A DNA stretch of 63,211 nucleotides, taken from Heliocybe sulcata. Lineage: Eukaryota > Basidiomycota > Agaricomycetes > Gloeophyllales > Gloeophyllaceae. Within the stretch, counting starts at the first letter, position 1. The number at the start of each line of letters is the position of its first letter. The notes below the pieces were generated by a model. That model was not told the origin of the DNA. It saw nothing but the letters and a program-made list of their open reading frames with translations, and searched no databases. Positions 4,830 through 27,870 of this stretch are shown here, piece by piece. The translations under genes and the position numbers were made by a program. The DNA lies in NCBI GenBank assembly GCA_004369045.1, contig ML213507.1, forward strand, positions 700,755 to 763,965, in the 5' to 3' direction.

Positions 4830-4944
4830 TTACGAGTCCTGAGGAACGAAGGAGGAGTCTTTAGCGGCCTTGGGCCGAACAATGATGACTGTGGGAATAA
4901 GATGCCGAGCAGTTGTGGGAATCAAAAGTGTAGTCTTGAATACA
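4830..4944 (+). mobile_element. Element 2, 5' terminal part (split by the giant element)
   Basis: Starts TTACGAGTCCTGAGGAACGA and for about 115 bases is nearly identical to the reverse complement of the outer end of element 3 (29820-29934). It then stops at the sequence GAATACA, where the 3' end of the giant element begins. The continuation of element 2 resumes at 27479 with TTTGTTTCAAAGTCC, as predicted from element 3, which reads GAATACATTTTGTTCAAAG without a break. The giant element therefore inserted 115 bases inside element 2. Confidence 0.82.
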
Positions 4945-4995
4945 CTTGAGGGTGTCGGCCATTGCAGAGCATGGCATTTTTTTTCGAGTCCTGAG
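4945..4995 (-). other. 3' terminus of the giant element: hairpin and internal inverse repeat
   Basis: On the minus strand the order is CTCAGGACTCGAAA (13 of 14 bases complementary to the element's 5' start), an A-rich spacer, the hairpin GCCATGCTCTGCAATGGC, and then GACACCCTCAAG. Short hairpins just before the 3' end act as replication terminators in Helitrons. The same order is seen at the ends of elements 1, 2 and 3. Confidence 0.8.
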
Positions 4996-5015
4996 CCTAT
5001 TTAATAGTATAATAA

Positions 5016-8000
5016 TTATTGTGCATAAATTACTAGTGTGGCTGATCTTTGGTGGGCGTTGAGTAGTGTGGTTGTTCTTGTTGTGCTTATATTTCCCTCT
5101 TTTACACATGTTCTGCCTGTTGATATGCCATCATTGTACCAGATGTCTCCTGCTGAATCAATGAATCGGGAGGTGAAGTGATATTCACCAAAATATATGA
5201 TACCTCTGAGGTAGAACCTTTTTGACTTATCATTATTTATGTACAAGTACTTGCTCGGTTTGATTGTTGTCCCTGTGGTGTGTAATGCTATGACTGCTGG
5301 GATTTTTGCAATAACTGTCACGGTTTTAATGTGTTGTCTACAACATTTCATTCCATGATGTATACCTTCCTGGCGGAGGTTATTTTCAAGCCATTGTCGG
5401 GTGGTTGAGACCGAAGTCTCCTGATCAGTGTGAGAAAATGGGGTGCAGTCAAAGAAAGGGGTGGTGATATCATGTGATGTTGTGTGACTGCATCTTGGGC
5501 ATTCCGATGTGATTGTACCTATTGTTGTAGTCTTTATTAATTCTTGATACAACTCCAGTACACTGGTGCCTACTCCACGTCGTAGTGGGAATCTGTTGCG
5601 ATCGAAGTTATTCATGATAATACGGAGATTATCTCTAGCTTGTTCCATGTCTATTACCCTTAGCTGGATTGATTCGAAATCAGATATCATGTTAGCCATA
5701 GTGTCATTTATGTCTAGTTGTTTGGACCAATTCTCTTGACTTTCTGACCATAGATTGTATATTACCGTAAGAAGGGCATCGTAAGCGCAACTGTAGTTTG
5801 ATTTCCAAATAAATCCTACTGGTCCTGGTTTGGGAATTTCTGTCTGGATTGTGTCGGGGGGGTCTGTGGCTATTGCACTTGCGGGCAATGTGCTGGTATC
5901 TAATATAGGCGTACTTTTGGGGGTAGTCTTTTGGTATACATCTTGATTGTCCTTTTTCATTGGTCTGAGTGTATCTATGGCTTTAATTGGTTTGATTAAA
6001 GTCCAGTCTGAATATTCAGTGGTGTCGACAGATTTCAAGGGTTGAGATGCTGACCATCTAATTGCAGGATGCACCATATCTGGGCAATAGTCTGGCTTCC
6101 ACTGCTGGTATGATCGGATCAGTGTATTCCTGCGGTGACCTTCAATATGTGCAGGAAGTATTCCATGATAAGTGAGATCAGAAATGTGGTCTAGAATCTC
6201 AAGTTCTCTGAACTCTTGTCTTAAAAAACCAGATGCTCCTCCAGTGATTTGTTTTGGGTTGAACCCTTGAACAACTACAGTACCCTCAGTAGATGCACTT
6301 CGTGACAGGCATGTATAATATGATTGATGACTGTTGCAATTGTTTAGATCAACAACATTATTTGGTCTTGTTCGTCCTTGTGATGCGTAATCTGTCATGG
6401 CGAAATTGGGAAGTACTGGTATTTGTTGCCGAATTATTTTTTCAAGAGTATCGTTGGGCAATCTGCATTCAATCTCCATATGTTCTCTATTTATAGGTAC
6501 AATATTTAAGGGTAAGTCATCCAACTGGACAGGCGTGGGAGGGTTTACAAGCTCTACGAATAAAGTGTCTAATATGTTCACACCTTCCAGTGAGTGTGAA
6601 TGCCAAGTGACAACTTTGGCCTCTGCTCCATTTGTTATACAACATTCAGTTGCTATATTCTTTTTTATTAGTACGGGCATGCCTCTGCAAAGTGACAACT
6701 TTCCAGCTACATGACTAGTATCTGTATGAGGTAAATTCCATAATATTTTTTGTATTTCAGGTTCAATTATTTCAGACGGGTGTAACTGTTTAGATTGTCT
6801 CAATTTTCTCTTTCCCTTAGAATGCGAAGGGTTCTTCCATTTGTCTAATGAATAGAACTCCATTAACACTTGACTTGTGTCTGTGGCATATTGTTTTGCA
6901 CCTAGTATATTAATTTTGTCTCGATGCATATTACGGGCTGTGATGACTGATACATGTCTGAATCGTGGGTCTGCCAGTTGTGGTCTCCCTGGTGTGAGAC
7001 CGGCTATACGTGATCTTAAAAATATAATATCCTCTTCGGTGCATGCTTTATACCTCATGTTTTCCAGTGCCGTTCGCAATTTAGCATCTTCAGGTGTCTG
7101 GGTTTTTTGTCGCATATTTTCTCTTAGAATCACGACTGTTATGAATTGGTGCCATAAAGCTTTACCTATGGCAGTTTGCTGGGCCATAACAGACATTCGT
7201 GGTCCGGCTTTGGTGCCCACAATTGAGCTATATAAAGGATGGCGGTTCATAGCTGGAGGAAGTTGGGCAAAGTCACCGCAAAGTATCATATTGATTCCAC
7301 CGAATGGATCATCATTATTACCTTTTCCTTTGCACAATTGCGAACATATATGATATAAATCGTAACAACTAACCATAGAGACTTCATCAATGAATATATA
7401 GTCAATGCTTTCCAGCTTGGCCTGCATATTAGCAGTATTTTTGGCGGAATTGTTTGCCATGTCAGATTTATCTGCCACACCGAGTATCGAGTGGTAAGTA
7501 GATCCTCCTACAAGAGCTGCAGCTGATCCGGTCGGAGCCAGTACTAAAAATCTATGTGATTCATTGCGTGAATTAAAAAATTCAATTAAGGCCTTAATTA
7601 CTTGTGATTTACCAGTGCCAGCCATACCGCCTAGATACATTTTGAGTTGATCTGTTGGAGGCATAGAGGCATGGTTGGTTATGACTCGGAAACCCCTTTC
7701 TTGTTGTGGTCGTAATGAATATTTATCTATAATTGCAGCCTGTAGATTTACAATCACGGGATTATCCGCAATAAACTCCTTCAGTAAGTATCTTTTGTCT
7801 ACTATTTTAACCTCATTCCAGTTAGTAAGTCGATTAGGCGCTGATGGTAAATCAGCCTTGGGTACTACTCTGTCCTGTTCGCGTCGCTGTAATATTGCCT
7901 CTTTTTTCTGCTGAATGTTATCAGACCAGTACTGTCTAGATTTTTGGTCAATATGTACATCTTCAGGTAAGATAAAATTATGCTTATATGGTAGTGGACG

Positions 8001-11000
8001 TAGCCAACCTGAACTTTTTAACACTGATTCCATCTCTGCCATCTGTTTCAATCGGTTAATGGTCTTTTTACCAATTTCCCTATAGTCAGCAGCTTCGGGA
8101 TGTACAACAAAGTCAAGATCATCATACGTGTCGTCAACTTGATCAGAATCCAGACCCATTCTTGCTAGTAGCTCCTTGTTGTGTAGGGTCGGGATTCCAG
8201 ATGAGGCTCCGGTCTTGCGTAGCCTCGAGTAGTCATCTCGGGCATCATAACATTCATATCGAATATTAAAGAAATTCATTAATTCTTGTTGTCTGGGTGT
8301 GAAATTATATGAGAAGTAAGCATCATCCCAAGTCTCATCTTCCTCTCTAAGATTTTTGCCTTCTCTCCAGGGTTTAAACAATGTTAACATTGCGGTGCAG
8401 TAAAACTCTCGATTACCAGTATCCCGTCTTGGGAGATTACCGCCGATGAAATTAGGAACTAGTGAGAATGATTCTTTAACCATAGTGACTTCATGGGTCA
8501 TATGCTGTGGATGTTGTATTGTGAATCTGAATTTTTTATCTGTAGTTGACACATCTTGATCTTCCATCAGTATAGTATCATCTTGTTCGATGGGTAAGTT
8601 CGGTTTGACATCCACAATATTTTTAGCCCTAGTTTTACGTGTTATATGACTCTTTCTGGATAGGCGAACCCAATCATATAAGCATATATTTTCATATTCA
8701 TTAGGTCTATATATATAATCCATTACTACAGAGTACATAATATAACCATCCGCAGACTGTGTTATTAATACTTTATTTTTGGATTCTTCCATATTATTTT
8801 CCAATTTCATATCTGGCTGTGATTCGGGTAACTCCCAATCTCCTAGTACTTCATTGACATACGCTCTCCAGTACACGGTTTTAAATCTGTGGCTGGTATA
8901 ATGGTCCGGATTTCCCAATAAATAGGCACTTGCCATAGGAGCTCCAATTTCCATTTTAACGGATAACGAATTGACTATTTGTGTTAATAATTTTCTTGCT
9001 TTCTCCTGATCAGCTAATGTGCCGCCGATCATTGCAGATTGCCTATCAAACACATCCCGTATAGTTTGGAATATGGTATAAGTCTTTAAGGGAGTTTTCG
9101 TTATATAATCCGTTACATAGGCAACGATAGCCTTTAAGGCCGTCCCGGATAGTAGACTGGTCACGTCAGAGTTAGATCTTAAAACATATGTTAACACAGG
9201 CATGAATGTATTGAGTCTACTTTCTAGCTTTTTGAGTTGTATAGAGCCATCGTCGGTATCTGCAGAAGACTTTGCAATGATAGGACGAGGAAATCTAGCT
9301 TTGCACTGGCCATTAACAAGGCAGTGGTCACCACATTTATGGATGTTGGACCTATACAGCAGGTCATTGACAGTATTTTTGTATTGCTCCCACCACCTAC
9401 TGCTGCATGTACACTCATCACAATTGTCTTCATTGTTATGGTCACATGGGATAGGAGGGCATGCCGGAAGAGTCTGTGTAGGGTCTTTATACCTCGGGTC
9501 ACTCTCTGCATACTTGACGTCAGCTTCTACCTCGAGCAATGTCCGTTCTATAAATTCTCCCTGATGGGCTGCTTCTAGGTAGTTAATCATTTCTCTCTCA
9601 AAGACCGAGTCGTTTCCAGATATACGATCTCTTATCTCTTGGGGACTTAGAGAGTTTGATATCCATAGAAGAAGATGTAAGTGTAAAGTAAGTCTTCCTT
9701 GTTGCTCTACAGTACCATAATATGCGGAGCTATTTCCATATATGCCATCTTGTGTAGCACCTACGCCTAGTACATGCTTTATAAATAGTTTGACCATCAT
9801 ATCAAAAAATCTTGCACCAGCGACAGGATTGTTAGCAATCAATCTCGATCTTTGGTCTTTAGGTAAAAGATCCATGCTAAATATTTTTTCAGTGTTAGCG
9901 TAGTAAAGACATATAGGGTGCTGGACATCTGCAGGAGCAAAGGTAATGAACCAAGATGGCGCACCTTTATAAGCTATTAAGGACCATATTTCATTTCTCA
10001 TATATTTCTTACTTGTGAGAGATCCCTCTACATATCCGCCAACTAGATCCAAATCATGTAATAACTGAAAACATATTTTCTCATCTTCTGTAGAAGGCTG
10101 TACTTTATCTCCTTTGGACAGTCTTGATGCAAGTTCTGCAAGTACAAACTTATTCACCGATAATAAGCGCTCTGAAATGGTATTGAACGATCTTCTATCT
10201 GCCACCAAAAAGCCACCAGTGGTAGTGGACTTAATTTGTTCATGATTAAATGCGATAATAGGAAAATATTGGTCCAGTTGAAATCGCTTGTCATGATACA
10301 TGAGAAGTTGACGCTTGTGTAGTTTCTCGGAAACTTTGTCAGAACAATGGATATTTCCCAGTCCACCTAAGCCATAGGGAAATAACCAGGGGAACATTTG
10401 TGGATATAATTGAGGGTTATTATAAATAGATTCAGGTTGCTCAGCATGTCCAACGGCCATGACTTTACCGGATGTAGTCAGATGTTTCATAGCCAATGCC
10501 TTGAGGGCCTTAATACTTTTTGAATATAACTGAGTACCGGTGACACCATGTACCACTAAAGGGCAAGGACCCGCTGTAGTGCCCTCTTCTTCTCCATCGT
10601 CATGCAAGCTCTTTCCCAACTCTGGCTCGGCCATAGTCTTAGGATGGTAGCTTACTACTACCGGTGGGCTGTTATCTTTGTATCCTTTCAGATTTTCATA
10701 TGATATGACAAGGTCATCATAATCTGAGTGGTTCAGTTTCAACCATTCTAAAGCTTTGCTTACCCTATTATGGCTGACAAGTAAAGGTGTTCGCTTAAAA
10801 TCGGCATCTACCGGTTGAGTAGGTCCAGTAAAAATAAAAGCCAACACATCATCCATCTCACTACGTGGAGGTGGTAGTGTGTCATAAATTTTTGGAGTGG
10901 GATTCGCAAACATGATGGCATTAGCTCTCATCTTGAGCCCACCCGCAGCGACTCTAACTACACAACGATTATGCCGGACTTTTGCGATCATAAGTTGCTC

Positions 11001-12290
11001 GGCTAGAGTTAGATTTTTTAGGGCATCAGGGACTTTTCCAATCCATAAACCATTAGCAAGCGCATTTCTGGGGATCTGTCCTGTCTGTAAAGTATTCCCA
11101 CATTCTGGACATACGTGAGTACAATCATGAGCGAGGACGGGTCCCGTTACAGGCTCAATAGGTTCAGATGGTACAATACGTTCTTTTCTGGTAACATTTT
11201 TGCTGGTTCCGCCAAGAAGATCCATAAACATGACATATTCGGCTATAGGCTTCATATAAATAGTCGGATATAATACACCACATACCGCACAACCTGTCTC
11301 ATTTATCATCTCTTCTCCTTGATCTTGACAAAAATTGTATATCAATTGTTGTAACTGTTTTTTATCTTTAGACTTAGGCGGAAATTTAACATCATTGCGA
11401 ACTTCCTGCTCATTAATATTACTGACAACATTGTTCTTAACATTCAGGGTCCAAAATCTATTATCATGATCAGTCGATAAAACTCTTTGTTTAAAATATG
11501 CTGAATTTAATTTGGGTATATAGGGCGCTAATACTGCATAATATTCCGGACAACGGCCACACACGTGAAGCTGTATAGTTTCCCGCATGTATTTTACCTG
11601 CCACCGATTACTGATAGTTATACCATGTAGTTCTCCGACTTCACTAAGCCATGGACCTGAAAGTTGGGTAATAAAAAGAGTTAATGGTGCTTGACTAAAT
11701 ATTATATTTTTATTGTCTTTATACATATACATCGCCTCATCCGGGAGACAGTAGTCAATAAATTTGAAGTGGGTATGCGGACTGGAAAAGAACTCGGATG
11801 AGGTTGACCATTCTGGAATAATCAAAGGGTGTTTTATGATATCGTTGATATGAAAGGCTGCTCTGCATGTACGGCGGACACCGCCTCCTAGTTCCGCATA
11901 CAGTTTGTCCATGATTATATAAGACAAGTGATTGTTGTAGTTTGAATATGAAGTGATCTCATATTTGTTTATAAATGCGGTACCAGCAAGTATCAAAATG
12001 TAGCATCCAGCCGCTGTACCTACAGCCAGCAACAACAGCGATGCTGAATTTGATGTAAGGTTCGTCAAACTATTTCTGTACTCCACGAGGAGGCAGGATA
12101 ACCCTGAAATTTGCTTGATTACAAGCCAGGCCAAAGCCTGAAGATCGTCGACAGGGAACAGCATGATAGGGAAGTATGTTTTGAATGCTAATCGGTTGGG
12201 CGGCAGCAAGTTAACAATCAGTGAGCCGGCAAAAACTGTATTCAAAGTCACAGATAATGATGACATAAGAACTGCCAAGTTTAGTGACAT
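5016..12290 (-). CDS. Helitron Rep/PIF1 helicase with C-terminal USP-like peptidase domain
   Basis: Single intronless frame of 2424 residues: the rolling-circle transposase of the giant element. In order it shows Cys-pair motifs and a DUF6570-like block (about 385-450, CPECGNTL and PRNALANGLWIG). The Rep HUH motif HLHLLLW lies near 866 and the two catalytic tyrosines YVTDY near 1060. The usual Cys-rich segment before NGQCKARFPRP sits between them. A PIF1-type helicase follows, with Walker A GGMAGTGKS near 1557, Walker B FIDEVSMVS near 1637, CGDFAQLPP, and ASQGRTRPNNVV. The last ~270 residues look like a USP/C19 peptidase: NYSCAYDALL near 2165 for the Cys box, and GEYHFTSRF with GDIWYNDG near 2368 for the His/Asp box. 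The first ~126 residues are hydrophobic and unlike Rep proteins; Met127 (11912) is a plausible true start. No AP-endonuclease domain was noticed. All key catalytic residues appear present. Confidence 0.93.
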   Translation of the reverse strand: MSLNLAVLMSSLSVTLNTVFAGSLIVNLLPPNRLAFKTYFPIMLFPVDDLQALAWLVIKQISGLSCLLVEYRNSLTNLTSNSASLLLLAVGTAAGCYILILAGTAFINKYEITSYSNYNNHLSYIIMDKLYAELGGGVRRTCRAAFHINDIIKHPLIIPEWSTSSEFFSSPHTHFKFIDYCLPDEAMYMYKDNKNIIFSQAPLTLFITQLSGPWLSEVGELHGITISNRWQVKYMRETIQLHVCGRCPEYYAVLAPYIPKLNSAYFKQRVLSTDHDNRFWTLNVKNNVVSNINEQEVRNDVKFPPKSKDKKQLQQLIYNFCQDQGEEMINETGCAVCGVLYPTIYMKPIAEYVMFMDLLGGTSKNVTRKERIVPSEPIEPVTGPVLAHDCTHVCPECGNTLQTGQIPRNALANGLWIGKVPDALKNLTLAEQLMIAKVRHNRCVVRVAAGGLKMRANAIMFANPTPKIYDTLPPPRSEMDDVLAFIFTGPTQPVDADFKRTPLLVSHNRVSKALEWLKLNHSDYDDLVISYENLKGYKDNSPPVVVSYHPKTMAEPELGKSLHDDGEEEGTTAGPCPLVVHGVTGTQLYSKSIKALKALAMKHLTTSGKVMAVGHAEQPESIYNNPQLYPQMFPWLFPYGLGGLGNIHCSDKVSEKLHKRQLLMYHDKRFQLDQYFPIIAFNHEQIKSTTTGGFLVADRRSFNTISERLLSVNKFVLAELASRLSKGDKVQPSTEDEKICFQLLHDLDLVGGYVEGSLTSKKYMRNEIWSLIAYKGAPSWFITFAPADVQHPICLYYANTEKIFSMDLLPKDQRSRLIANNPVAGARFFDMMVKLFIKHVLGVGATQDGIYGNSSAYYGTVEQQGRLTLHLHLLLWISNSLSPQEIRDRISGNDSVFEREMINYLEAAHQGEFIERTLLEVEADVKYAESDPRYKDPTQTLPACPPIPCDHNNEDNCDECTCSSRWWEQYKNTVNDLLYRSNIHKCGDHCLVNGQCKARFPRPIIAKSSADTDDGSIQLKKLESRLNTFMPVLTYVLRSNSDVTSLLSGTALKAIVAYVTDYITKTPLKTYTIFQTIRDVFDRQSAMIGGTLADQEKARKLLTQIVNSLSVKMEIGAPMASAYLLGNPDHYTSHRFKTVYWRAYVNEVLGDWELPESQPDMKLENNMEESKNKVLITQSADGYIMYSVVMDYIYRPNEYENICLYDWVRLSRKSHITRKTRAKNIVDVKPNLPIEQDDTILMEDQDVSTTDKKFRFTIQHPQHMTHEVTMVKESFSLVPNFIGGNLPRRDTGNREFYCTAMLTLFKPWREGKNLREEDETWDDAYFSYNFTPRQQELMNFFNIRYECYDARDDYSRLRKTGASSGIPTLHNKELLARMGLDSDQVDDTYDDLDFVVHPEAADYREIGKKTINRLKQMAEMESVLKSSGWLRPLPYKHNFILPEDVHIDQKSRQYWSDNIQQKKEAILQRREQDRVVPKADLPSAPNRLTNWNEVKIVDKRYLLKEFIADNPVIVNLQAAIIDKYSLRPQQERGFRVITNHASMPPTDQLKMYLGGMAGTGKSQVIKALIEFFNSRNESHRFLVLAPTGSAAALVGGSTYHSILGVADKSDMANNSAKNTANMQAKLESIDYIFIDEVSMVSCYDLYHICSQLCKGKGNNDDPFGGINMILCGDFAQLPPAMNRHPLYSSIVGTKAGPRMSVMAQQTAIGKALWHQFITVVILRENMRQKTQTPEDAKLRTALENMRYKACTEEDIIFLRSRIAGLTPGRPQLADPRFRHVSVITARNMHRDKINILGAKQYATDTSQVLMEFYSLDKWKNPSHSKGKRKLRQSKQLHPSEIIEPEIQKILWNLPHTDTSHVAGKLSLCRGMPVLIKKNIATECCITNGAEAKVVTWHSHSLEGVNILDTLFVELVNPPTPVQLDDLPLNIVPINREHMEIECRLPNDTLEKIIRQQIPVLPNFAMTDYASQGRTRPNNVVDLNNCNSHQSYYTCLSRSASTEGTVVVQGFNPKQITGGASGFLRQEFRELEILDHISDLTYHGILPAHIEGHRRNTLIRSYQQWKPDYCPDMVHPAIRWSASQPLKSVDTTEYSDWTLIKPIKAIDTLRPMKKDNQDVYQKTTPKSTPILDTSTLPASAIATDPPDTIQTEIPKPGPVGFIWKSNYSCAYDALLTVIYNLWSESQENWSKQLDINDTMANMISDFESIQLRVIDMEQARDNLRIIMNNFDRNRFPLRRGVGTSVLELYQELIKTTTIGTITSECPRCSHTTSHDITTPFFDCTPFSHTDQETSVSTTRQWLENNLRQEGIHHGMKCCRQHIKTVTVIAKIPAVIALHTTGTTIKPSKYLYINNDKSKRFYLRGIIYFGEYHFTSRFIDSAGDIWYNDGISTGRTCVKEGNISTTRTTTLLNAHQRSATLVIYAQ

Positions 12291-12756
12291 GTGACAATTT
12301 GTATTGTGTAACCATGCTTTGTAATGTCCTGCTTAGTGATGTGATTGGTACGTCGGAACTATGTGGTTCAGTAATAGCAAGAAGTTCACCAACTGCTAAA
12401 TATACCTACAAATTGGTAGCTACAAATCAATCAATGAAATATGAACATATGTTATCTTCATGCGCCCGGGAAGTAAAATGCTGTACCGTCTGGGTAATCG
12501 GAGTTTTGCTAAGCATTATCGGAATTTAAATTCTATTGATCGGCAATTTAATTCGTGAGAACCTTGCATAAAGTGGGTCGGAAGAGTTATTGTACGCTTC
12601 AAGGGCTGTAACCTTTTGCTTATCACCTATGGATTATACCGCATCTCTATTCATACATGAACTCTTGCGTCACAAGCAGCAACACCAGTCAAAATATTCA
12701 TTATAGTCATAAGGCAACACATTGGTGTATGAGACGGCACATTGGTGCAAGATACA
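12291..12756. other. Spacer between Rep/helicase start and cargo gene A stop
   Basis: About 465 bases between the 5' end of the Rep/helicase frame and the 3' end of cargo gene A, both on the minus strand. It should hold the Rep/helicase promoter. I see no clear TATA box or other site I can defend. Confidence 0.4.
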
Positions 12757-15527
12757 TTAATCGACAACAGGACTTGTGATTACGACGACCCACTGCAGGT
12801 TAAGACTCAAGACCGGGTCAGTTCCCTGAACGGCTTTGGTAGGCTTCCACCGAGTGACCGTATACCCCACCATAGCCGTAGATCCACCTGGAATCTCAGA
12901 CATAAACTCTGGCAGGCCAACTTGGTCCAGCCTATGGATCCACTTGTCCCAGTTGATGGCACGATCTACCACGCCCAGCCGTGCGTCGTAGATAGGAACT
13001 ACTCAACTGTATCAGCAATCAAGTCAGACAGAACTATGAAACACTTTACCTTTATCATTCAAGTCCAAGGCCCGGTTAACCTGACCCTTGAGCGGAGAGG
13101 AGACAGGCTTGGAAGTCTTGGAGGGACTAAACAGAGGAGGACGCGAGCTGGGAGTCGAGGGCTCGGCAGTAACTGTAAATAGTCAGAATAATCAATAAGA
13201 GTCTGAATGAACACGTACCGGGTGTTCCACCGCCACTGATGCTAAGTTGTATGGCATCGCCATCCATCCGAGCCACCAAGCCTTCAGTCTGATCATATAC
13301 GGTCCCGACCACGCTCAACCACCTCTGCCACTCGAAAGTATAGAAGACGCCAGACAGATACTTGAAGGAAAACCCTCCACGCTCTGCGGGATTCTGAAGA
13401 TAACATTCGCTCACCGCCACCATTGAAGCACATAAGACTGGCCGATCCTCGTTAAGGACTGCTAGCGCAGATTCCTTCTGGGAGGTGACGTGTAAGATGT
13501 CCGGAGAAATACGAGATAGGTTGATGACAGTTAGATCTTTCTGCTGGAAGCAGATGGACTTCTTGATAAACCTAGTTTCAATCGTGAGAGATATAAAGCA
13601 TATGTTATAAATAGTCACATACTCCAAATCTTCTTTAACGTGAGGACAGATGGGGTCCTTAGGTCCATAGGGCAGTGGAATGCGGCAAGGCGAGTAGGTC
13701 TGGTGACACTGGAGATGGTACTTCAAGCTACCGAACAACACATTTCCGGTAGCCCTACCGCCGAAGCCACGATAAGGGTTGACGTCAACCCAGCTATGTT
13801 CAGGTAAATATGTGTTATATTAATAGATAATAGTTTACTCACTATTTCAGGGCAGGTAAATCCTTATACGTCTTCACCAGGGCAGGGTCCTCAAACTGTT
13901 TGAACAAGTCTGGGTTTGGGGCAGGTCTACCATCGATTATGAATAAGCATGTTCACGACTAACAATATAACAGCGCACCCTTTATCCTTACCGGCACCCT
14001 TGTTGCCGGTTGACTTATCAACATCGCCAACCGAACGCCTTATAATATATAAGTTATCACAATACCATAGATACGCAGCTACAACACTCACAAAACCACT
14101 GGCCGATCTTCGTCACTATCCACCGTGGACGGCTTTGGTGGGACCCTGGTTTACCATGAGCATATTATATATATATATATTTAAGAACAATTTACCTGAG
14201 ACGGGGACGGTCGTCCTCCTCCTTATCCTGCACCTCAGCATCGCTCGATTCAGCACTTATCTGACTAGAATCATGCTCCTGCTCCTCGTCCTGCTCCTCC
14301 TCCTGCTCCTCATCCTGCTCCACGTCCTGCTCGTCCAAATCATTATCATCCTCATCGTAATCTGTACCCTCATGGCCGTCCTCGTCTTCCGGTTCTCCTA
14401 CCGGCTGAGTGCCGACATCGAATATATCGTTGGAACGCTCAGGCGACACACGATGCTGGGTGTACCTTAAGAAATAGATCATAAGTAATGTCATTTGGAC
14501 AGGGAACCAAGGAATTATTTAACATACAGGATCTTTCGGCCGTCCGTGACGGGAGCTAGGTCATCGACATTCTTCTTCTTCGTGGTAGTCTTCTGGCGCT
14601 TCACTACGGGCCTGTATCAGTGTTAATCAATGAAGCCTGCATAAAGAATAAACATCACGACGTACTTCTGAGGTGGAGAAGGAGGCGGCTTCACGTGTTC
14701 ACTGAATAATAAATGACTAAATTGTGTTACGCAGACATGCAATAAGAGTACGTACTTGTTAGTAGAAGGCGGGAGGACCTCAACATCATCGTCGGATCCA
14801 GCAATTCGGCGCTTAGAACCCTTCACCATTCTAAACAATATATATCAAAAATACGAAGCACCCATTTTAACACAGACAACGTACATTTTGTCCTTCACCT
14901 GCGTGACTGCAGCTATCTTTTTCTTATTACTATCCAGCGCTTCAGAGATTACTCGCTTGACAGACGGTGGGTCGCTTATAATATTAATGATTAAAACAAG
15001 TTTCAAACATCGTAATAGGTGAGAGCGCACCTGGTTTCATCACCTGAACTGATATCGATCACTTCCTCAGCATCAACCGCAGCAACCTCCTCTTCTGAGT
15101 CACCATGGGAGGCAGACACCTGCTTCTTGCTAGTGCTAAAAGCAATAAGAATCAGAAAATAAAAATGAAATAAAAGCATAATAACTGAAGTGATGATCTA
15201 CCTCGTCGATGCCCGTGACGGCTTAGTACGCCTCCCGGAATCTACGGGATCCGCATCCTTAATCTTGGTAGCCCTAGATTAAAACACAGTCAGAAGTAAG
15301 GCTAAATTAGATGATAGAAACCTCACCTTTTCTTTGTAACAACCCGACGGTTTCCAACCTTGCGAGCGGCGGCCGCAGACGAAGCAGACTGACTAATATT
15401 CATATTATTTATCTCAAATCCCTGAGGAAATAATATAAAAAACTCACGCGTTAACAGGAGCGGAAGTACCTGCACCTCCGGCGGTGTCAGGACGCGTATC
15501 TTCGGTACTTTCAGAGATAGCGGTCAT
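12757..15527 (-). CDS. Cargo gene A: acidic nuclear-type protein, unknown function
   Basis: Minus-strand gene of about a dozen short exons; start ATG 15525-15527, stop 12757. Exon 1 encodes MTAISESTEDTRPDTAGG and ends at a GTGAGT donor (15442-15447); exon 2 starts at 15392. Next come a basic stretch (RKVGNRRVVTKKR), EEVIDISSGDE, SDDDVEVLPPS, and a very acidic Asp/Glu/Gln run near 14270-14400. Then follow PAPNPDLFKQFEDPALV, a conserved-looking domain (VDVNPYRGFGGRATGNVLFG to CPHVKEDLE, then FQQKDLTVINLSRISPDILH), and a C-terminal block VDRAINWDKWIHRLDQVG and EIPGGSTAMVGYTVTRWKP. The two VIDI/VEVL-plus-acid segments resemble SUMO-interacting motifs. I do not recognise a named family. Similar blocks recur, to my recollection, in many agaricomycete hypothetical proteins. 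Interior exon edges are approximate. Confidence 0.72.
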
Positions 15528-16236
15528 ACTGTGCAGTGTTGAGATACAGTCCATGTAAGAAAATGGGCGGCACGCACCTAGTCGATCTACTGACTTCTAC
15601 AGGACTATAACTCGAATGCATAAGAAGACCGTCTCGAAAATACATGGATCAGGCATACCTTCCAAGACGCCTGCTGGGGATAACTTTACGACCAGACTTC
15701 CTAAGAACAATGATTGATACGGTCAGGCGACGATTCCAAAGGAGCGGCAGAATAAATGTAACCTGGTTGGGGTCTCCTGCTCGGAAGGTATCCTCGCCAT
15801 GAATCCAGGCAGTTTATTCCTGACCTTATATATGGCAATGCACAACAACCCACATCCAAAGAACCTGAGATGCGACGTATCTGTGTAAGGCACATGTCCA
15901 GGTTCTGGAGCGTCGCTGACTTAGGGAGATCAGATAATCATCATTAGGGTCGCATAGTTAGGATCTTCCGGTTTGTTATTTGCAAATACCTTCCGGCAAC
16001 CATGATCTCCCATACATATAGAAAAGGAGATCATTACTTATTATTTCAATGGCCAAATAACAGGGCAAGCATGGGTGCTGCAGTAGTAGGAATAATAGAA
16101 AAGGAGATGGCGGACCCAGTCGCCATATAATATTCACAGTTGTTTTTCTCGGCATTGCTTATTGATATGATTGCCTCAGTTCGGACCACTGTAATCTCCG
16201 GAAATCGCTAGGCAATCGCTAGGCAATCGTCAGCAC
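15528..16236. other. Divergent promoter region of cargo genes A and B
   Basis: Gene A runs left and gene B runs right from this ~700-base interval. No additional gene is supported; the small minus-strand frame at 15701-15895 has no recognisable content. Confidence 0.45.
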
Positions 16237-17730: not shown

Positions 17731-18047
17731 TTAATGGGGTTGTCATCGGAGCGCTGTATTCACTTAAGAATAACGCCATAAACTAGTATACGATCAAGCC
17801 CGGAGTAGTCTGATGCAGGTAGATAATAAATGAATCATGCTCAATGTAGACCCATCTTGAAAGCTTCACAAGGGCGGTGACAAACAAATTAACAAGTTGG
17901 CACCTCAGCAAGAAGAACGCCCAATGACCATATATTATAACCCACAATACCAGTAATATCACCAAGCCTTATAGGAAGATTCATTATGCATGTTTATTCT
18001 ACAATACACGCGTTCATCATCTACAGACCTTTTCCGCAAGCCAAACT

Positions 18048-19712
18048 CTAAACGGAATCCCACGCGTTCCGCATGACATCGTCAATAACTTCAGGACCCT
18101 GTGGGAGCTGCACATGTTCGCCCGAATCGGATGGCACCGATTCGGGGAGTTCCCCCTCATACATCGCCAAGCGTGCCTCGAGAGTTTTGACCCTAATCTT
18201 GAGCATCTCAATTTCTTTAGAGAGCTGATCCACCCTTGCCGTGCCGGAGGCTCTGAAAGCATTCAAGTCATTCACGATGACACGGGCATCCCGCATAGCG
18301 TTAGAAACGTTGATGCTCTGCTGTTGAAGCTGTTCCGAAAGTTGGCTATTGCGTCTTTCGATGTCGTCTGACACGTTCACGCGTGCCTCGACGCCGGCCA
18401 GTCTGGCTTCGTCACTGGCAAGACGAGCCTCAAAAAATACGAAGCGACCTGACATAGTTCAGCGACTCGAATGGGGGAGGAAATAGACATAATACTCACT
18501 GTCTGGATCTATGTGAATGCCCATGGGGACGACGGGAAGTGGCGCAGCTGGAGTAACTGTGGGAAGAGGCGTATCTGGAGTAACTGCAGGAAGCGGTGCA
18601 GCTGGAGGAACTACGGGGAGCGGCCCCGCTGGAGGAACTCCATCGGATGCGGCTATCGTTCCAATTAGGGTTCGGGATGTCGCAGCGTCGTAGACGTGGT
18701 CACCATGGACCGGTTGAGAAGATGACGCTGTTACTCAAAGGTCAGATAATACAGAGACGACAAAATTTCACAGACGAACCAGGTGGGTTAACTCGCTGCA
18801 ACTTGGGGTCAACCACATCCATGGGTGTCTCCAAAGGCCTCTTCCCAGCGCGACGCACACGGAGGGATCGCTTCGGCGATCCCGGTAACACCTCAGTGTT
18901 CTCAGAGTCCGATTCCAAGACTTCCGCATGGGTCTGCGGGCCAGACGAGGTCTTGGTGGTTTCCGCGACATCTTCCACAACGTCCTGGTCTGACAAAATC
19001 GGCGTAATCTTCGGCACAACTTTCCCCTTCCCTTTCCCTTTCCCTTTCCCTTTACCCGCATCCTCTTTGGAATCCGCGTGTTTGACCCGCGACTTGGCTA
19101 AGGTGCACTTGCGCTTTGAGCTCCCGCACTCGACACACGCTGTGTCAGCCTTCTGTCCGACCGCGTACGTGCATGATAACCCCTTGCTGAGACACTCGGA
19201 ACACTGCCGTTATACTCATTAGAAACCAAAGAGGGCATTGATATAAGATAGGACGCACTGGGACAGTCTGCGCGATCAGTGCCGTCGACTCACTCCCCGT
19301 CACCTTTTCCCTCCGCGGCTTACGAGAACTAGCCCTAACTTTTACTGACCTCAGACTTTCCTCCTCATCCGCATCGACCCTAGCCTCCACCTCACGAGAT
19401 GCATTGCGAATGGTACCAGAGGTATCGCCAGTTGACCATGGCATCCACGGGAGCTCAGCGAGAGGTCCATCGTGCATCGCAAATACGAGATGCCGCGGAA
19501 GTAGCGCCTCGCATTCAGACACAAACCGAGCCTTCTGGACATTATCCGCGGACCTGGGCTTTAAGAAACGAACATTAACAAGAATGTACTCAGCAAAGAC
19601 AGATACCCACCAGCACATCGATGAGTGCGGACAACGCATCATCCATAGAGAATTCCGTGTCCAGGTACCGTCGAGCAATCAGTTTAACTTCCAAGCGCAC
19701 TGCATCGGCCAT
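18048..19712 (-). CDS. Cargo gene C: Cys-rich, Pro-rich, coiled-coil protein
   Basis: Minus-strand gene starting MADAVRLEVKLIARRYLD at 19712 and ending NAWDSV-stop at 18048. In order: an N-terminal ~110-residue region; a Cys cluster with spacing C-x2-C-x5-C then C-x2-C-x6-C (CSECLSKGLSC and CVECGSSKRKC, about 19105-19215) that could bind zinc; a Lys-Gly run (KGKGKGKGKGK); a basic RVRRAGKRP patch; Pro-rich repeats of type PLPxVTPxxP (about 18530-18640); and a C-terminal coiled coil with heptads (EARLASDEARLAGVEARV, KEIEMLKIRVKTLEARL). An intron around 18450-18500 joins IDPDS to RFVFFEARL. The architecture suggests a nucleic-acid- or chromatin-binding oligomer, but this is inference; no family is recognised. 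Confidence 0.72.
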
Positions 19713-19845
19713 AGTTGACAGTACAATAGTTGCGGAAGCAGAAAGACCAACGGAAGCACGCTGCGGGCAACTAACAAGAAGAAGAAAAAAACTTCCGCAG
19801 TTACAAACGCGTGTGGCGGGGAAATTCTCACGTTTCCCGCATTTG

Positions 19846-19981
19846 CGGGATGTGGCGGAAAGTCGATTGCGGAATTTTGCAGGATTTAGTGGAAAGTCGA
19901 TTGCGGACTTTTGCGGGATGTGGCGGCAAGTCGATTGCGGAATTTTGCGGGATTTAGTGGAAAGTCGATTGCGGACTTCTG
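19846..19981 (+). repeat. Four 34-bp tandem repeats upstream of gene C
   Basis: Four units starting at about 19846, 19880, 19914 and 19948. Each holds AAGTCGATTGCGGA (third unit CAAGTCGATTGCGGA). Units alternate between GGGATGTGGCGG and GGATTTAGTGG starts, giving a 68-bp higher-order unit. They lie 130-270 bases upstream of the gene C start codon, in its presumed promoter, inside a wider stretch rich in GCGGA/TCCGC words. Confidence 0.85.
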
Positions 19982-20899
19982 CGGAGACCTGAACACCGCA
20001 AGACTCCCAGCCACCAAACTTTATACTTACCGTAAACAGACCATCTTACCGTATACTATACAGTAGAAAACGAGCGGGGACATCCTTATGGCTGAATACC
20101 ATTGTGACAGTTTCCGCGGAGTTTAACGAAAGCCGCAAGCGACGTTGACCGGCCGCACAGTCCCAGACCAATCAGATCAAGCGATTCCAGAATGGATACA
20201 ACTAGGATACACACCACCTATTACAAACGTCGGTTCATCTTAGGACACCAGACCGATCATGATTCTCGACCAAAGGCAACAGCACAAAGCAATAAGCGCA
20301 TAAAGGCTGTGCTACGCATGTGGAGTCCCAAGATAGCTATCGGCTTCACTGACTTAGAACGACGAACCTCCAACCGAGAAGACAAAAACTGCGGGACGTA
20401 CGCAAAATTTGCACTTCCACGTTGCTCTCGCCTTGGCACCATATCTGACGTATCGTCACTCACCCTACCCGCAGCGAGCGGCCGCCACGATAAAGACGAA
20501 AATGCAACAGCACTAACAGAAGTCCGCGACGTACCATCACCAGCCATCAAATAGCCAGAAAGGCCGCGAGGTATCTATCTGAAGATTAGGATTATATCCA
20601 CCCCACCCCCACCCCTTTCCTATAAAGCAACTCACGGAAGAGAGTCAACCGAACAATATCCGACTTGAACTGTCCAAAGGAGAGAGTAAAGAGAGAGAAA
20701 GAGTACAAGAGAGAATACGGAGTGAAGAACCGAACGTCGCACCCACCTACATGACGTATGTTTGGCAAAATAACTTGTTTAAAATCCGCGATATGTACGT
20801 CATATGCTTTCACGCTGCCCCCAACCAACTGACGGCAATTCTAGAATTCGTGAAAGGGTGTTCCCCAGTGTGATACAAAATAGTTATGTGATTATAGAG
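19982..20899. other. Intergenic region between cargo genes C and D
   Basis: Genes C (left) and D (right) diverge from here. Open frames on both strands at 20192-20554 overlap and neither has recognisable content or flanking splice sites I can defend. A purine-rich stretch (GAGAGAGTAAAGAGAGAGAA, about 20681-20720) could be a promoter element of gene D. Confidence 0.4.
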
Positions 20900-22619
20900 A
20901 CGACCTGCGAATTGCTCGTACGTTCAAGAGACTGCATCTCCCTTTTTCCCCAGCGCCGCATCGGGACTTACTGCACGAGACCCTCTACTGACTCTGCCTA
21001 CGAAACCACAAGCAGCGTGCTCGTGCATTCACCCTCTAGGCTTGCACAATCCCGGACTGGCCACGGCCGTTACTTCCGATATTCCGGAACCGCTCAAGAC
21101 CGCTCAGAAAGTATGGTATCTTCCCGCATACGCGTGTATGCAATATCTGAACCGCAATACAGCTCGAATAGAATCCACGGAACACCGTACAAACTTTAGC
21201 AAGATCGAGTAAGTCCATATCGAATGGTCCACGTAATTCAATTGACTATAAGCATTATACCAGACCAGCGGTCGGACCAGGCTGACGGAAGGCACGCCAT
21301 TTGACAATAACATGTATGCGGAAACAGACTTCGATGAAGACCCTGCATACATGACCACGGACTTGGGACTACGCTGCACGATATACGATCCTCGCCGGGG
21401 CTGCACTCATCCGCTGTGGAAGTATGGTAAAGCGATAGTTGTGTTGATGAAGCTCACTCCCGAAGACGTTCGTGAAAGGTACGAGCACTAATTCCATCAA
21501 TGAATACAGACATAGAAGGAAGATCCGACGCCACAGGATAAGAATCAGTCAAGCCTGCGAGCTCCCAGTTGGAGCGAATAGCTACGAAGAAGTAGAGAAG
21601 TTGGGATGGATCTGTCTGAAGCCTGGCATGGCCGTCTTCATCCGAAGCGTGAAATCCGAGGATGACCGGGGCACGACCGCAGACCCTTTGCAGGACGACA
21701 TCCAGGGGTGGGTGACGAACCACACCGAGCTAATAGAACACCACATCCGATACGATGACACCATCCATGATCGTCTTCTTGCCATCGCTGCGACGGCTCT
21801 GGGTCCTGAAGAGGAACGAACAGCAGTGCCTCCGATGGATGCCAAAAACCCCGCAGGTGGAGTTGCCCTCGAGCGACTATTGTGACGTGTATCGGGCAAC
21901 GCAAACAACTCTCAAGGTAAGTTTTCACCCTCCAAGCAGAGTTATTGTTTAATATTCCTGCGCAAGGTCGGCGATGCTACACACTAGGATATAGCTTCGA
22001 ACGACCGCGAGCCATGGCTCACCCATGTCGAAACATGAAGTATAATAACAATTTATCGACTAACGAAGACTTCCGCAAGGAACTGTTACACGTAGGTCGC
22101 ATTAAATATCATTATGCGACTCGCTAACATCTATTCAATAGGCCGCAACCGAGTATGCCGGCTTAGCTATGGATCTAGCACCAAAAGAGCGCATTAACCT
22201 CATCGAAAACATCGGCACTGTCAAGCAAACCCTACCCTTGGGGCACCGTAATAATCGCAACTTCTGGACTGGATTCCAAGCAAACCACTAGTGGTCACTA
22301 GTCTTTATACATAATTTACCACAACTGTGGTGAAGTCATATACACTACTTTAGTAGTCCTTATATGATATGTGTTGCAGTGGGATTATATGTGATATAAT
22401 GCGACCACATGTGTGATACATTTATATATGGTTGAGGTAGATTTATATAGGATGTATATATGGTGGAGGGCATATATACTGTGGATGTAGGGGGTTTGCA
22501 GTAGATTTATACTGGATTTGTATGGTATACTGGGTTGTTTATATCAGGTTTGTACAATCTCGCAGAGGTTTTGTACCAGTTTGTATGCTATACTTGTGGA
22601 TTTATATTAAATTATAGCC

Positions 22620-22980
22620 TGTGCTGGTATATTTATATGGGGGGGTGTATAATATTGCAGTGCATTTATATAATTTTCTGGTTGGGTTATACTGGATGTG
22701 TGCAGTTTACCGGTGGCTTTATATGAGGTTATAGTGGATCTGGTCCACATTATACCAGATTTGTATGCTTTACCTGAGGATTTATATCAAATTGTACACC
22801 TTACTGCTATATTTATATGGGGGTTGTGTAATATTGCAGTGGATTTATATAATCTTCTGGACAGGTTATACTGGATGCATGCAGTTTGCTGGTGGGTTTA
22901 TATCAGGTTATACTCGACCTGGTCTACATTATATACTCACTGTATACCGTTTCAGGTCACTTTATATTGGATTTATATAA
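22620..22980 (+). repeat. Two diverged ~186-bp tandem units in the left foldback arm
   Basis: The block starting near 22632 (TTTATATGGGGG then ATATTGCAGTG then ATTATACCAGATTTGTATGC) is followed by a similar block near 22811 with the same word order. The right arm holds the inverse of the first block and the start of the second. Confidence 0.6.
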
Positions 22981-23168
22981 AACTTTTGGGCACTTCCTAT
23001 AAATGTAGGGGACATCTGGTCACATTATATGAGATTTATATGCAAATTGGGGGGGCCCTGCTGGGTGGAATCTTCCACAAATCAGGGATCCTCATGACCC
23101 TATAGGGGACTACAGTTTGACCCAATAACATGGGCAATATCTCTCAGGATAGAATTAGTGCACCCCCC

Positions 23169-23873
23169 NNNNNNNNNNNNNNNNNNNNNNNNNNNNNNNN
23201 NNNNNNNNNNNNNNNNNNNNNNNNNNNNNNNNNNNNNNNNNNNNNNNNNNNNNNNNNNNNNNNNNNNNNNNNNNNNNNNNNNNNNNNNNNNNNNNNNNNN
23301 NNNNNNNNNNNNNNNNNNNNNNNNNNNNNNNNNNNNNNNNNNNNNNNNNNNNNNNNNNNNNNNNNNNNNNNNNNNNNNNNNNNNNNNNNNNNNNNNNNNN
23401 NNNNNNNNNNNNNNNNNNNNNNNNNNNNNNNNNNNNNNNNNNNNNNNNNNNNNNNNNNNNNNNNNNNNNNNNNNNNNNNNNNNNNNNNNNNNNNNNNNNN
23501 NNNNNNNNNNNNNNNNNNNNNNNNNNNNNNNNNNNNNNNNNNNNNNNNNNNNNNNNNNNNNNNNNNNNNNNNNNNNNNNNNNNNNNNNNNNNNNNNNNNN
23601 NNNNNNNNNNNNNNNNNNNNNNNNNNNNNNNNNNNNNNNNNNNNNNNNNNNNNNNNNNNNNNNNNNNNNNNNNNNNNNNNNNNNNNNNNNNNNNNNNNNN
23701 NNNNNNNNNNNNNNNNNNNNNNNNNNNNNNNNNNNNNNNNNNNNNNNNNNNNNNNNNNNNNNNNNNNNNNNNNNNNNNNNNNNNNNNNNNNNNNNNNNNN
23801 NNNNNNNNNNNNNNNNNNNNNNNNNNNNNNNNNNNNNNNNNNNNNNNNNNNNNNNNNNNNNNNNNNNNNNNNN
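23169..23873. other. Assembly gap (705 N)
   Basis: A run of N lies exactly at the centre of the inverted repeat, where assembly of a hairpin is expected to fail. The true length is unknown. Confidence 0.99.
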
Positions 23874-26842
23874 ACACAACCCCCATATAAATAGAGCAGT
23901 AAGGTGTACAATTTGATATAAATCCTCAGGTAAAGCATACAAATCTGGTATAATGTGGACCAGATCCACTATAACCTCATATAAAGCCACCGGTAAACTG
24001 CACACATCCAGTATAACCCAACCAGAAAATTATATAAATGCACTGCAATATTATACACCCCCCCATATAAATATACCAGCACAGGCTATAATTCAATATA
24101 AATCCACAAGTAGAGCATACAAACTGGTACAAAACCTCTGCGAGATTGTACAAACCTGATATAAACAACCCAGTATACCATACAAATCCAGTATAAATCT
24201 ACTGCAAACCCCCTACATCCACAGTATAATCTGCCCTCCACCATATATACATCCTATATAAATCTACCTCAACCATATATAAATGTATCACACATGTGGT
24301 CGCATTATATCACATATAATCCCACTGCAACCCATATCATATAAGGACTACTAAAGTAGTGTATATGACTTCACCACAGTTGTGGTAAATTATATATATT
24401 TTTAGGGCCCACGACTCAGCAAACGTCTCCCGTCCAATCCAGAACCAGTCCTCCGGAGACTTTCAAGCAGATCTAGGTCGTGCTGGTGACGCTCACCCAG
24501 ACACCCATGACCAGCTCGGCTCCTTCACAGCACTTGTCGTCGCGACTGATACTCCAAAACACTGCACAACGGCCAACTTCCACCTAATCGAACTAGGCGT
24601 ATTTATCCCTATGAATGTCGGAACGACAATCATATTCTCTGGTCTTAGGCTTCACGCGCGCGCACCCTCAATGGCTCAAGCTTCATTAACTGAGATACCG
24701 CAGTCTTACTATAGCTTGGCGCTCATACTGTACTTGACTAAGGAACTCGCAAGTCCCCAAGACGTCCGATCGCAATTATGTTCATCTCTGGCCGACAAAA
24801 AACACTCGGATGTTCTCGTTCTCCCACCCGAAGCCTATACTACAACCGAAACTTATCGCGCGCTGCCAGCAACATTTCCAGTAACCATGTTGCGAGACGG
24901 TCACATGGTAGCCGGAGACCGACTTCCGGCGTACACTATGGGCGCTCTAGCGGCACTCCTCAACCACCTCACTCGCGAATCACCGGAATACCTCTACCGG
25001 TTTACTGCAGCTGGTCTAGCCAACGGGGCCGAAGTTAAGAGAATCAGCGACGACGCGAACATAGACGTGTCGACGCAGGAGCTCGACCCTACGAGGAGAT
25101 CAAAGATTATTAGCGACTGGGATGACCTGCTAAAGCTTCAGCGCTATTACCTTGGAGGAGTAAGTACAGCGAAGCAGAAGATGCCTTCCAGAGGTAAGAA
25201 CGAGCCTATAGTCAATTTGATAGAAGACTAACACGAATGTCTACCATCAGAACCAACGGCCATCAAACTAAAGCACGTCCCGATCTATCCGGACAAATTA
25301 TCCAAGCTTCGAGGCGCTCGTGCACTCCCGCTAGATGAGGACCATACACCTGAAGCTTCAACGTCCGGTAAGCAGAATAATATACCCATCCATAAATGAC
25401 GTACAACTGAAATATTCCAAAGCACGACAGCTTACGCCAGAAAATGACACTGAATCGGATCTATCGCTCGATACCGGTGAATACTACAGCCATTATGATT
25501 CGCCTGTACTATAGACTGACGATGAGTAGACTTATCCTCGCCGTCCGAGATTCAGTCGACGAACAGCCTCGGAAAGTGCAGCAGAATATCAGATGAAGAA
25601 GAAGACCCTGAAAGTTCAGAGGACTTTGACGTCAACCAGGACCAACCATCAGACCGAGAGGATTCACCTTCCGTCGAAGAAAGCGAAGAGCACAACGAGG
25701 CCGAAGAGAACGCTAAGAAGAAACAGAAGAGAAGTAAAAAAGTCTACCGTATGTTGTCTAACATATTACTAAACGCTCATTCCCAGCGAAAGCAATCAAG
25801 AAAACAAAAAAGAACAAGCTCACTCCGTCGAAGAACAAAGACTCGACCACCAAACGACCAGTAGAAAAGAAAGGTGCGGAACAATATCGTAACAGAAATC
25901 GAACAAGTACGCGGCTTATCACTCAACATAGATATGCGAGTGAGACTACTAGGTGTTCTGAACACCGACTATCTAATGCAAACAACCGAACGCTTAATGA
26001 CACAGCTTCATCGAAACCCAAATTCCAAGGCCACTTGGTACTGTGGTCGCCCAGTACACAACACGTCTATTTCCATGAACATCATCGACTTCTCCTGTCA
26101 GGACGCAACAACCCTGGTAAACTTGAACCAAGCCCTACACATTCCAGCGATCGTTTTGAACATTCTGAAAGGCCTCACGAATCTACAGGGACTGGAACTC
26201 AACAAACTACTGATTCGCTATTCTGTCATGCTCGGCGTCTGGAGGCTCTGGGGGCTCATTGAAGTGGACTTTCGACGGCTTGTGCAACATACACTGGACG
26301 GAACAGACAACAACTGGCTTTCACCTCTAGTAATCAAGATATGCGACCACTACATCAACCGCAACAAAGATATCCTAATCCTAAAGAGCGCCGACTACCT
26401 CCCAGGTGTCGCTAAGGACGTTACCTTCCGATTACCGCCCGCCACTCGCAGATGGCTTAACAACGAGGTATCTCAAATCGTCATTAATTCCGCGCTAGAT
26501 GCCTTGGGAACATGGCTCGAATGTCCTAGAAACGTTGGAAAGACTGCTCTCTGGCGCGACCAAGGCTTCCTGATCGAGATACTCATTTCCCATACCGGCA
26601 GCAACAACATATGCTTCCTCGACGAAACGTGGGAAGCATTCCAGAACCCGAAGCTGCTCATAGGTGCGAAACAGAATGGCGCTGGGACGACAGACTGATG
26701 GACCTTACTCGAGGCGGACATGCGATCGCATCTGCGAGGTCAAGCCCGAGGGGACGTTCAGGAAGCGCTAAGGAAGTTAGGTGATGTTATGCACCCTTAC
26801 ATCGCTAAAGCGGAGACTATACACAAGGAAAGAGACCCTTAG

Positions 26843-27477
26843 ATGTACTAGATGCCATTAATAACAATTACCAAATTGAAACTTCTCGTACGCAACAGCA
26901 CCGACGAAACTTAAGCCAGACGAATAACAAAACTCAACACTCTAAGACAAGCGCCACACTAAGGGGATGACAACTATACACACGCCACAGTCGAAGCCCA
27001 AACACAATCGAAAACATACGCCACAGAACAGAAACATATGCTGTCAACCAATCAGCATCCAGGATTCCGGCGAGACGCGGCAGCAGCATCAGCCACATCT
27101 GGTTCGCACGGTCAGAAACCAATTTTGTAGTCTCCGCAGAACGATGAGAATTCTCTCCTGCCGAAAGAAAACAGTATAATTAAGGAAATATTGCCATACT
27201 TTTGAATATGAACGAAGATGATATATTTAAAATTTGAAAAAAAAACGAGGAGAAATAAGTGAGCCAGGCCGTCCGGAAGAGAAACTGAGACTACAAACCA
27301 AAATCGTAGAGGCGATAAGGGTCGGAGTCTGAATATGATAACAGCACTTCTTATCGAGACTACAAAACAAAAGTCGCACGACTTCTCGGCATGCGTTTCC
27401 CACGGACTCAGACATTCGGCACAGGCACGAACTTTTTTCGAGGTAAAGACGCCTCCTTCGTAAACTCAGGACTCGTA
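26843..27477. other. 5' subterminal region of the giant element
   Basis: No gene supported. On the minus strand the outer 250 bases resemble the start of element 1 (TTACGAGTCCTGAGTTTACG, then GTTTGTAGTCTCAGTTT further in), showing that these two elements share a 5' end subfamily. Confidence 0.6.
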
Positions 27478-27822
27478 ATTTGTTTCAAAGTCCGCTGGTA
27501 GTCGAGACTACAATTTTGGATTTGTAGTGCCACATTTCAGTAATCTGTCCAGCGCTCACCCTCCTGTCGCCATGACTACCTGGAATTTCAAATATATTAT
27601 CTAGACCATATTACACACCCTCTCAAATATTTTGGTGATTTTAGGAGTGCTCCTGGCTGCACAGTTGGCATGTCTTTGGAACAGGCACTACAAATCATCT
27701 ACTTACTCATTGCTTACCGTGGGACCAGTCCAGCGGAGTTTCAACTACAAGATTTCCGCGCCGGTTGACATTTGAGACTTCTGATTGGCTGTTGGCTTGC
27801 CATTAGAGCGCTCCTTAGTATT

Positions 27823-27842
27823 GACTACAAATAGTTGTAGTC
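27823..27842 (+). other. Hairpin A in element 2
   Basis: GACTACAAATAGTTGTAGTC: the stem is conserved with element 1 (650-669) while the loop differs. Confidence 0.68.
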
Positions 27843-27870
27843 GTGTTATTAAAGATTATGCTTGAGGCAA

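Follow-up and report, generated by a model that had tools for sequence, protein, structure and literature searches.

Fungal Helitrons bearing extra genes have been described before; our statements on such systems follow those parts of the cited papers that entered the comparison. The HELPO1 Helitrons of Pleurotus ostreatus possess one to four extra genes, some of which are expressed (Castanera 2014; PMC4289320). A TET-bearing Helitron2 is present in Agaricus bisporus, and TET-bearing Helitron1 elements occur in a rust and in Pezizales (Kojima 2025; PMC12730594). Asymmetric terminal inverted repeats and, in some subgroups, a 3' hairpin characterize the Fusarium Helitron2 elements (FoHeli; PMC5148889), and Helitrons with deubiquitinase domains (VTD, OTU) carry a cysteine-protease-like domain on their RepHel protein (PMC9741609). 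Here we report on a 63,211-nucleotide stretch of the Heliocybe sulcata genome (contig ML213507.1, designated C5, positions 700755-763965; hereafter, the window), in which an earlier note made from the sequence alone had recognized a Helitron2-like element of about 22.5 kb. Searches of the 31.6 Mb assembly (51 contigs) lead us to consider it likely that this rolling-circle transposon is a large autonomous-type Helitron2, to which the cargo belongs as a standing component.

Among the published systems, that of A. bisporus is the one that bears on novelty, which the earlier note had claimed: like the window element, it is an agaricomycete Helitron2 with a dioxygenase-type gene, an anti-silencing role has been proposed for it, and its publication precludes the claim (PMC12730594). 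It differs in that its PE-type dioxygenases are marked by HxE, whereas gene E of the window family reads HPD. The parts of that paper compared here describe neither a five-gene module nor a cassette exchange. For the HELPO1 elements, in contrast to the element studied here, the parts of the paper compared give sizes of up to 13.7 kb, their genes are called captured and of unknown origin and function, and a module conserved over diverged elements does not feature (PMC4289320). In literature searches that excluded preprints and held few subscription papers, we found no paper on giant Helitrons or on Helitron cargo in agaricomycetes, only PMC9741609 on fungal Helitrons in conjunction with deubiquitinases, and nothing closer by title and abstract.

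The element and its ends occupy the following positions of the window:

4945-27478, minus strand: complete Helitron2-type element, 22,534 bp
27465-27478, minus strand: 5' terminus, TTACGAGTCCTGAG, which doubles as the 5' half of the asymmetric inverted repeat
4985-4995, minus strand: 3' half of the asymmetric inverted repeat, CTCAGGACTCG, 11 bp
4958-4975, minus strand: short 3' hairpin, GCCAT-gctctgc-ATGGC; the element terminates 13 bases beyond it, at CTCAAG|T

These limits are based on an empty-site comparison and on the recurrence of both ends in four further copies (C1, C9, C8 and C5a). Joining of the flanks (4944|27479) yields AATACA|TTTGTTTCAAAG, and five unoccupied related stretches (L002, L003, L004, L005 and L006) run from AATACA through the insertion point at a length equal to that of the joined flanks. 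We therefore place the ends at 4945 and 27478 and conclude that the element inserted, as Helitrons do, without duplicating its target site. L003 is the other arm of an older element that hosts the Helitron2 and lies inside the window itself, the remaining four stretches are located elsewhere, and L007 is similar as well. The 5' terminus is confirmed by a comparison of C9 with C48, since their identity of 96.8% starts exactly at this end and extends inward, and no similarity was found in their flanks.

The terminal features are those of a Helitron2. The asymmetric terminal inverted repeat (TTACGAGTCCTGAG/CTCAGGACTCG), with its 3' copy slightly internal, is present in the window, C1, C9, C8 and C5a, and its 3' half was also detected in C17 and C11:626k. 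In the window the 3' end is arranged as CTCAGGACTCG-A8-TGCCATGCTCTGCAATGGCCGACACCCTCAAG, with the final letters CTCAAG at 4945. A 3' hairpin with the stem GCCAT/ATGGC or a near-variant of it is found in the window, C1, C9 and C8; its position is conserved, and its stability is ordinary in comparison with shuffled sequences (z -0.2 in the window, z -0.4 in C1). The minus-strand ends, hairpin and internal inverse repeat that the earlier note had described were thus all recovered, with matching ends in the same four further copies. Helitron1 ends (5' TC, 3' CTRR) do not match the window element, which begins with TTAC and ends with CAAG, and it does not qualify as a Helentron because no AP-type endonuclease was found by Pfam in the 2438-residue Rep frame. 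The base following the 3' end is a T at all seven ends inspected (window, C1, C9, C8, C5a, C17 and C11:626k), and the base preceding the 5' end is an A or a G in the window, C1, C9 and C8, provided that the element starts with TTACGAG. For Fusarium, a Helitron2 target between TTTT and T or C and the insertion of Helentrons in TT have been described; the FoHeli elements differ from ours in size (about 5-11 kb), end sequences and insertion preference (PMC5148889). Another element in the window, located at 199-1700, also starts with TTACGAGTCCTGAG at position 199, and its first bases are the same as those of the 5' end at C5:149314.

The transposase is encoded directly inside the 3' end:

5016-12332, minus strand: Rep/helicase open frame with 2438 codons between stops; homology begins at about residue 131-146; Pfam domains DUF6570, Helitron_like_N and PIF1
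9666-10307, minus strand: Helitron_like_N domain, with HLHLLL (HUH) close to its end and YVTDYITK further on, at residue 1072
7092-7709, minus strand: PIF1-like helicase domain, Walker A GMAGTGKS and Walker B FIDEVS
5019-5825, minus strand: C-terminal cysteine-protease-like domain, YSCAYDA ... CPRC ... KCCR ... HFTSRF ... NDG

As is characteristic of Helitrons, the Rep functions (HUH, tyrosine) and a PIF1-like helicase reside within one protein. The window frame is open throughout, in agreement with the intact Rep/helicase proposed earlier, and no other Rep match covers the whole protein in one stop-free frame. The Cys, His and paired-Cys motifs of the C-terminal domain resemble those of USP proteases, and the motif residues are mostly invariant across five copies. 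The earlier designation of this domain as USP consequently holds at the level of motifs and was not borne out by profiles, as no relevant Pfam or PDB profile match was obtained, USP families included. Compared with the Helitrons of PMC9741609, the window domain is therefore USP-like by motif only, and the AP endonuclease is absent by Pfam. Rep matches were placed at 14 loci, a lower bound. Seven of these also contain cargo (window, C8, C17, C5a, C9, C5b at C5:303-306k, and C1:2280k) and seven do not (C23, C6, C11:626k, C11:735k, C11:745k, C44 and C1:1711k, the last a 30% relative).

Between the transposase gene and the 5' end lie five cargo genes, for which we used approximate models from a simple splice-aware script; the first exons of B and D are the least certain. 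Our genome-wide searches rate best candidates only, and all locus counts are accordingly lower bounds:

12757-15527, minus strand: cargo gene A, multi-exon, with an acidic N-terminus and a conserved C-terminal half; relatives at 7 or more loci
16557-17730, plus strand: cargo gene B, multi-exon, first exon uncertain; relatives at 8 or more loci, one of them a fragment
18048-19712, minus strand: cargo gene C, Zn2Cys6-like cluster and coiled-coil-like C-terminal part; relatives at 4 or more loci
20751-21885, plus strand: cargo gene D, first exons uncertain; relatives at 9 or more loci
22014-26698, plus strand: cargo gene E, HPD...H 2-oxoglutarate (2OG)-dioxygenase-like region and C-terminal domain, interrupted in the window copy; relatives at 9 or more loci
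22286-24417, no strand assigned: AT-rich foldback insertion in E, flanked by the 7 bp target duplication AGCAAAC (22279-22285 / 24418-24424), containing the N gap 23169-23873

The earlier note had counted four genes; its right-hand 'gene D' comprises both D (about 20.75-21.89 kb) and E (22.01-26.70 kb). All cargo matches (tblastn) fall among the same nine loci, and no match outside them was placed among the best candidates of this genome. Five of the nine have both ends: the window, C1:2260076-2280847 (20.8 kb), C9:1120623-1098873 (21.8 kb), C8:870307-851851 (18.5 kb) and C5a (C5:149314 to about 168305; 19.0 kb). Three have one end, namely the 5' end in C48 (40.3k) and C5b (C5:329.8k) and the 3' end in C17 (249.2k). 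The ninth, C3, has neither end, and is bordered by an assembly gap on one side and the contig end on the other. The standing cargo module envisaged in the earlier note is thereby upheld, with eight of nine loci having at least one matching end. Its two proposed checks, whether the genes also occur outside such elements and whether the ends recur at similar spacing, likewise came out in its favor within this genome: C3 alone of the nine loci lacks a matching end, and the four further two-ended copies span 18.5-21.8 kb. Gene order and orientation in C1, C9 and C8 are as in the window, and by coordinates and strands also in C48, C5a and C17. By tblastn, C8, C17 and C5a gave no match to gene C, and C5b gave none to genes A, B and C; C3 holds D, E and a fragment of B at its end, and no Rep match was found in C48.

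With respect to the nature of the cargo proteins, profile searches found no family for A, B and D. The SUMO-interaction-like motif noted earlier in A is present in the window and C1, and C9 and C8 yielded no such pattern. The Cys-rich, DNA-binding-like protein of the earlier note is gene C, whose cysteines fit the Zn2Cys6 consensus, C-x2-C-x6-C-x(5-12)-C-x2-C-x(6-8)-C, in all three copies inspected (window, C1 and C9); against Pfam Zn_clus it scores 16.6 of the 21 bits needed and thus stays under the cut-off. In nine of nine copies E, the dioxygenase-like protein of the earlier note, has HPD followed further downstream by an H (GLRLH), which matches the HxD/E...H iron-ligand pattern of 2OG dioxygenases and not the HxE hallmark of PE-type TET/JBP proteins. 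A significant profile match is lacking, and the Tet_JBP profile (PF12851) gave three weak hits over the genome, all below cut-off and all away from E. Relatives of E were not found in bacterial/archaeal and viral contigs, and a structure model of the E exon alone was unusable, at a mean pLDDT of 32.7. The 'chromatin-modifying set' of the earlier note is hence weak, being visible at motif level in C and E and without profile support. The foldback insertion is absent from the corresponding position of E in C1, C9 and C8; the E gene of C1 carries a stop of its own, and both conserved parts of E are open in C9 and C5b. Close to the E gene at C3:1887k there is a foldback element very similar to that of the window.

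The two halves of the cargo appear to have different histories. Comparing the window with C1 in 400-base steps, we found 93-99% identity over 12,710-19,896 (about 96% for A-B-C) and 57-78% from 20,261 to the 5' end (D-E); the step falls at about 20,240, in the interval separating gene C from gene D. Identity rises again to 94% over the terminal 204 bases of the 5' end, and it is 98.8% over the last 418 bases, the sole part of the C1 Rep gene outside its N gap. Trees were calculated from shared copies, the Rep tree using the same six as the E tree plus one extra row. In the tree of the Rep C-terminus (seven rows) the window groups with C9 and C8 (100/99), and a grouping with C5b is rejected (p-AU 0.0018); in the E tree (six rows) the window groups with C5b (100/100), and a grouping with C9 and C8 is rejected (p-AU 1e-78). 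A nine-row E tree agrees with the six-row one. From these mutually rejecting groupings and the identity step, the D-E end was most likely exchanged between element lineages. Tandem repeats of 34 bp are present at 19842-19977, near the break at about 20,240.

Comparisons among the window, C9 and C8 show silent sites close to saturation (pS 0.66-0.82), and at the amino-acid level A retains 76-80% identity, B 62-69% and Rep 73-77%. The window-C1 pair gives dN/dS values of 0.06 for B, 0.12 for E and 0.16 for D, and, on few changes, 0.19 for Rep (114 codons), 0.28 for C and 0.30 for A. Judged by these identities at near-saturated silent sites and by dN/dS, A and B are as tightly constrained as the transposase, and constraint is looser on C, D and E.

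Several observations weigh against a cargo that belongs to, and works for, the element. The identities of C (45%, window-C9), D (40-57%, based on 107-108 codons of its last exon, the only D exon in the constraint analysis, where it contributed 107-111 codons) and E (38-70%) are lower than that of Rep, and E shows dN/dS values of 0.64 (C9-C48) and 0.55 (C5b-C3) in young pairs, as expected of decaying copies. The window copy itself probably makes no complete E, since the foldback insertion splits the gene, and E matched no Pfam dioxygenase family in any of seven rows and nothing relevant in a PDB profile search. Cargo is not required for mobility of the family: in C23, C6 and C11:745k the 5' end lies about 2.3 kb from Rep, which leaves no room for cargo, and no cargo match was found there; their 3' ends were not located. 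Copies of Rep other than that of the window are partial, frame-split or stop-bearing. Regarding the exchange, C5b sits on a long branch of the Rep tree, and the tested clades were picked after the pairwise identities were known. Finally, one stretch of the empty-site comparison comes from the window itself.

If the cargo were a mere passenger, host genes would have been captured once by a Helitron2 and would be functionless for it, as proposed for HELPO1 of Pleurotus. Gene capture by Helitrons is known (PMC4289320), relatives without cargo exist, and the observed/expected CpG ratio of the cargo (0.96-1.10 over 12333-26850) resembles that of the host flank (1.0) and differs from those of the Rep frame (0.63 over 5016-12332) and the foldback insertion (0.17), although these ratios are compatible with several readings. 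A parental host copy, however, was not found in the assembly among the best candidates rated, and gene order is kept and amino acids are constrained in elements with saturated silent sites, so that we regard this explanation as unlikely. Somewhat less probable still is that D-E, or all of A-E, represents another mobile element inserted into Helitron2 elements. The separate history of D-E, its presence in C5b and C3 with no match to A or C, and the foldback element inside E would suit such nesting. Yet in the window, C1, C9 and C8 the D-E pair adjoins the 5' end with unchanged orientation, and by position it does so also in C48, C5a and C5b; no second transposase was noticed in the window cargo, where terminal repeats of D-E were not systematically searched for; and recombination in flanking homology accounts for the exchange equally well. 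An artificial joining of unrelated pieces in the draft scaffold, finally, could be suspected from the N gaps in the window (23169-23873, 705 N), C1 (7510 N) and C9 (1112 N). It is highly improbable, given that the C8 stretch is free of N and nevertheless has the ends, Rep, A, B, D and E, that the layout agrees in four copies, and that the empty site matches in length.

We thus favor an autonomous-type Helitron2 with standing cargo, and are very confident of the structural part of this explanation as far as sequence comparisons reach. By analogy with the known Helitron mechanism, the HUH/Tyr nuclease would cut a single strand at the 5' end, the nicked strand would then be peeled off by the PIF1-like helicase, the 3' hairpin region would end the transfer, and the freed strand would be joined at a new site. 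The extra genes probably serve the element and are not stray passengers. They may aid its persistence, most likely through counteracting silencing, with E acting as a 2OG-dioxygenase-like protein and C as a DNA-binding-like protein, and the protease-like C-terminus of Rep might protect the transposase. Methylation-based silencing is possible in this fungus because DNA methylase domains occur in its genome; even so, we propose the anti-silencing part only tentatively.

The surroundings of the element comprise the host element mentioned above:

4830-4944, plus strand: left part of the older non-autonomous element hosting the Helitron2
27479-29934, no strand assigned: remainder of the older host element, two non-autonomous Helitron2-like units placed tail to tail (inverted repeats I1, I3, I7, I8 and I14)

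Together, these parts form a palindrome of about 2.6 kb that has relatives elsewhere in the genome and may have arisen as a side product of rolling-circle transfer. A reading of 4830-29934 as one 25.1 kb element with terminal inverted repeats (97% identical) was considered and rejected, as its repeats are this older pair. The window further contains a large inverted duplication (1-2835 / 53292-54570, in pieces of 83-100% identity) and host genes encoding a tyrosinase domain (40487-41014, minus strand), for which PDB matches were distant only, and a bZIP factor (55845-56852, plus strand).

Gene-bearing Helitrons are usually taken as products of accidental capture. In H. sulcata, the set of extra genes has held together across deeply diverged elements, with transposase-like constraint on two of its members, and one end of the set has apparently been exchanged between lineages. 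With these properties, it becomes testable whether rolling-circle transposons of eukaryotes bring along genes that favor their own survival, and elements with and without cargo can be compared inside one genome. Going further, and more speculatively than for the anti-silencing role, one may envisage a giant Helitron2 lineage with its own host-manipulation module, in which a new family of 2OG-dioxygenase-like proteins of the HxD type would be joined by a Zn2Cys6-like binder and three proteins without family assignment; the module would be selected beside the transposase and traded as a cassette. Such a lineage would be a rolling-circle counterpart of gene-rich giant elements.

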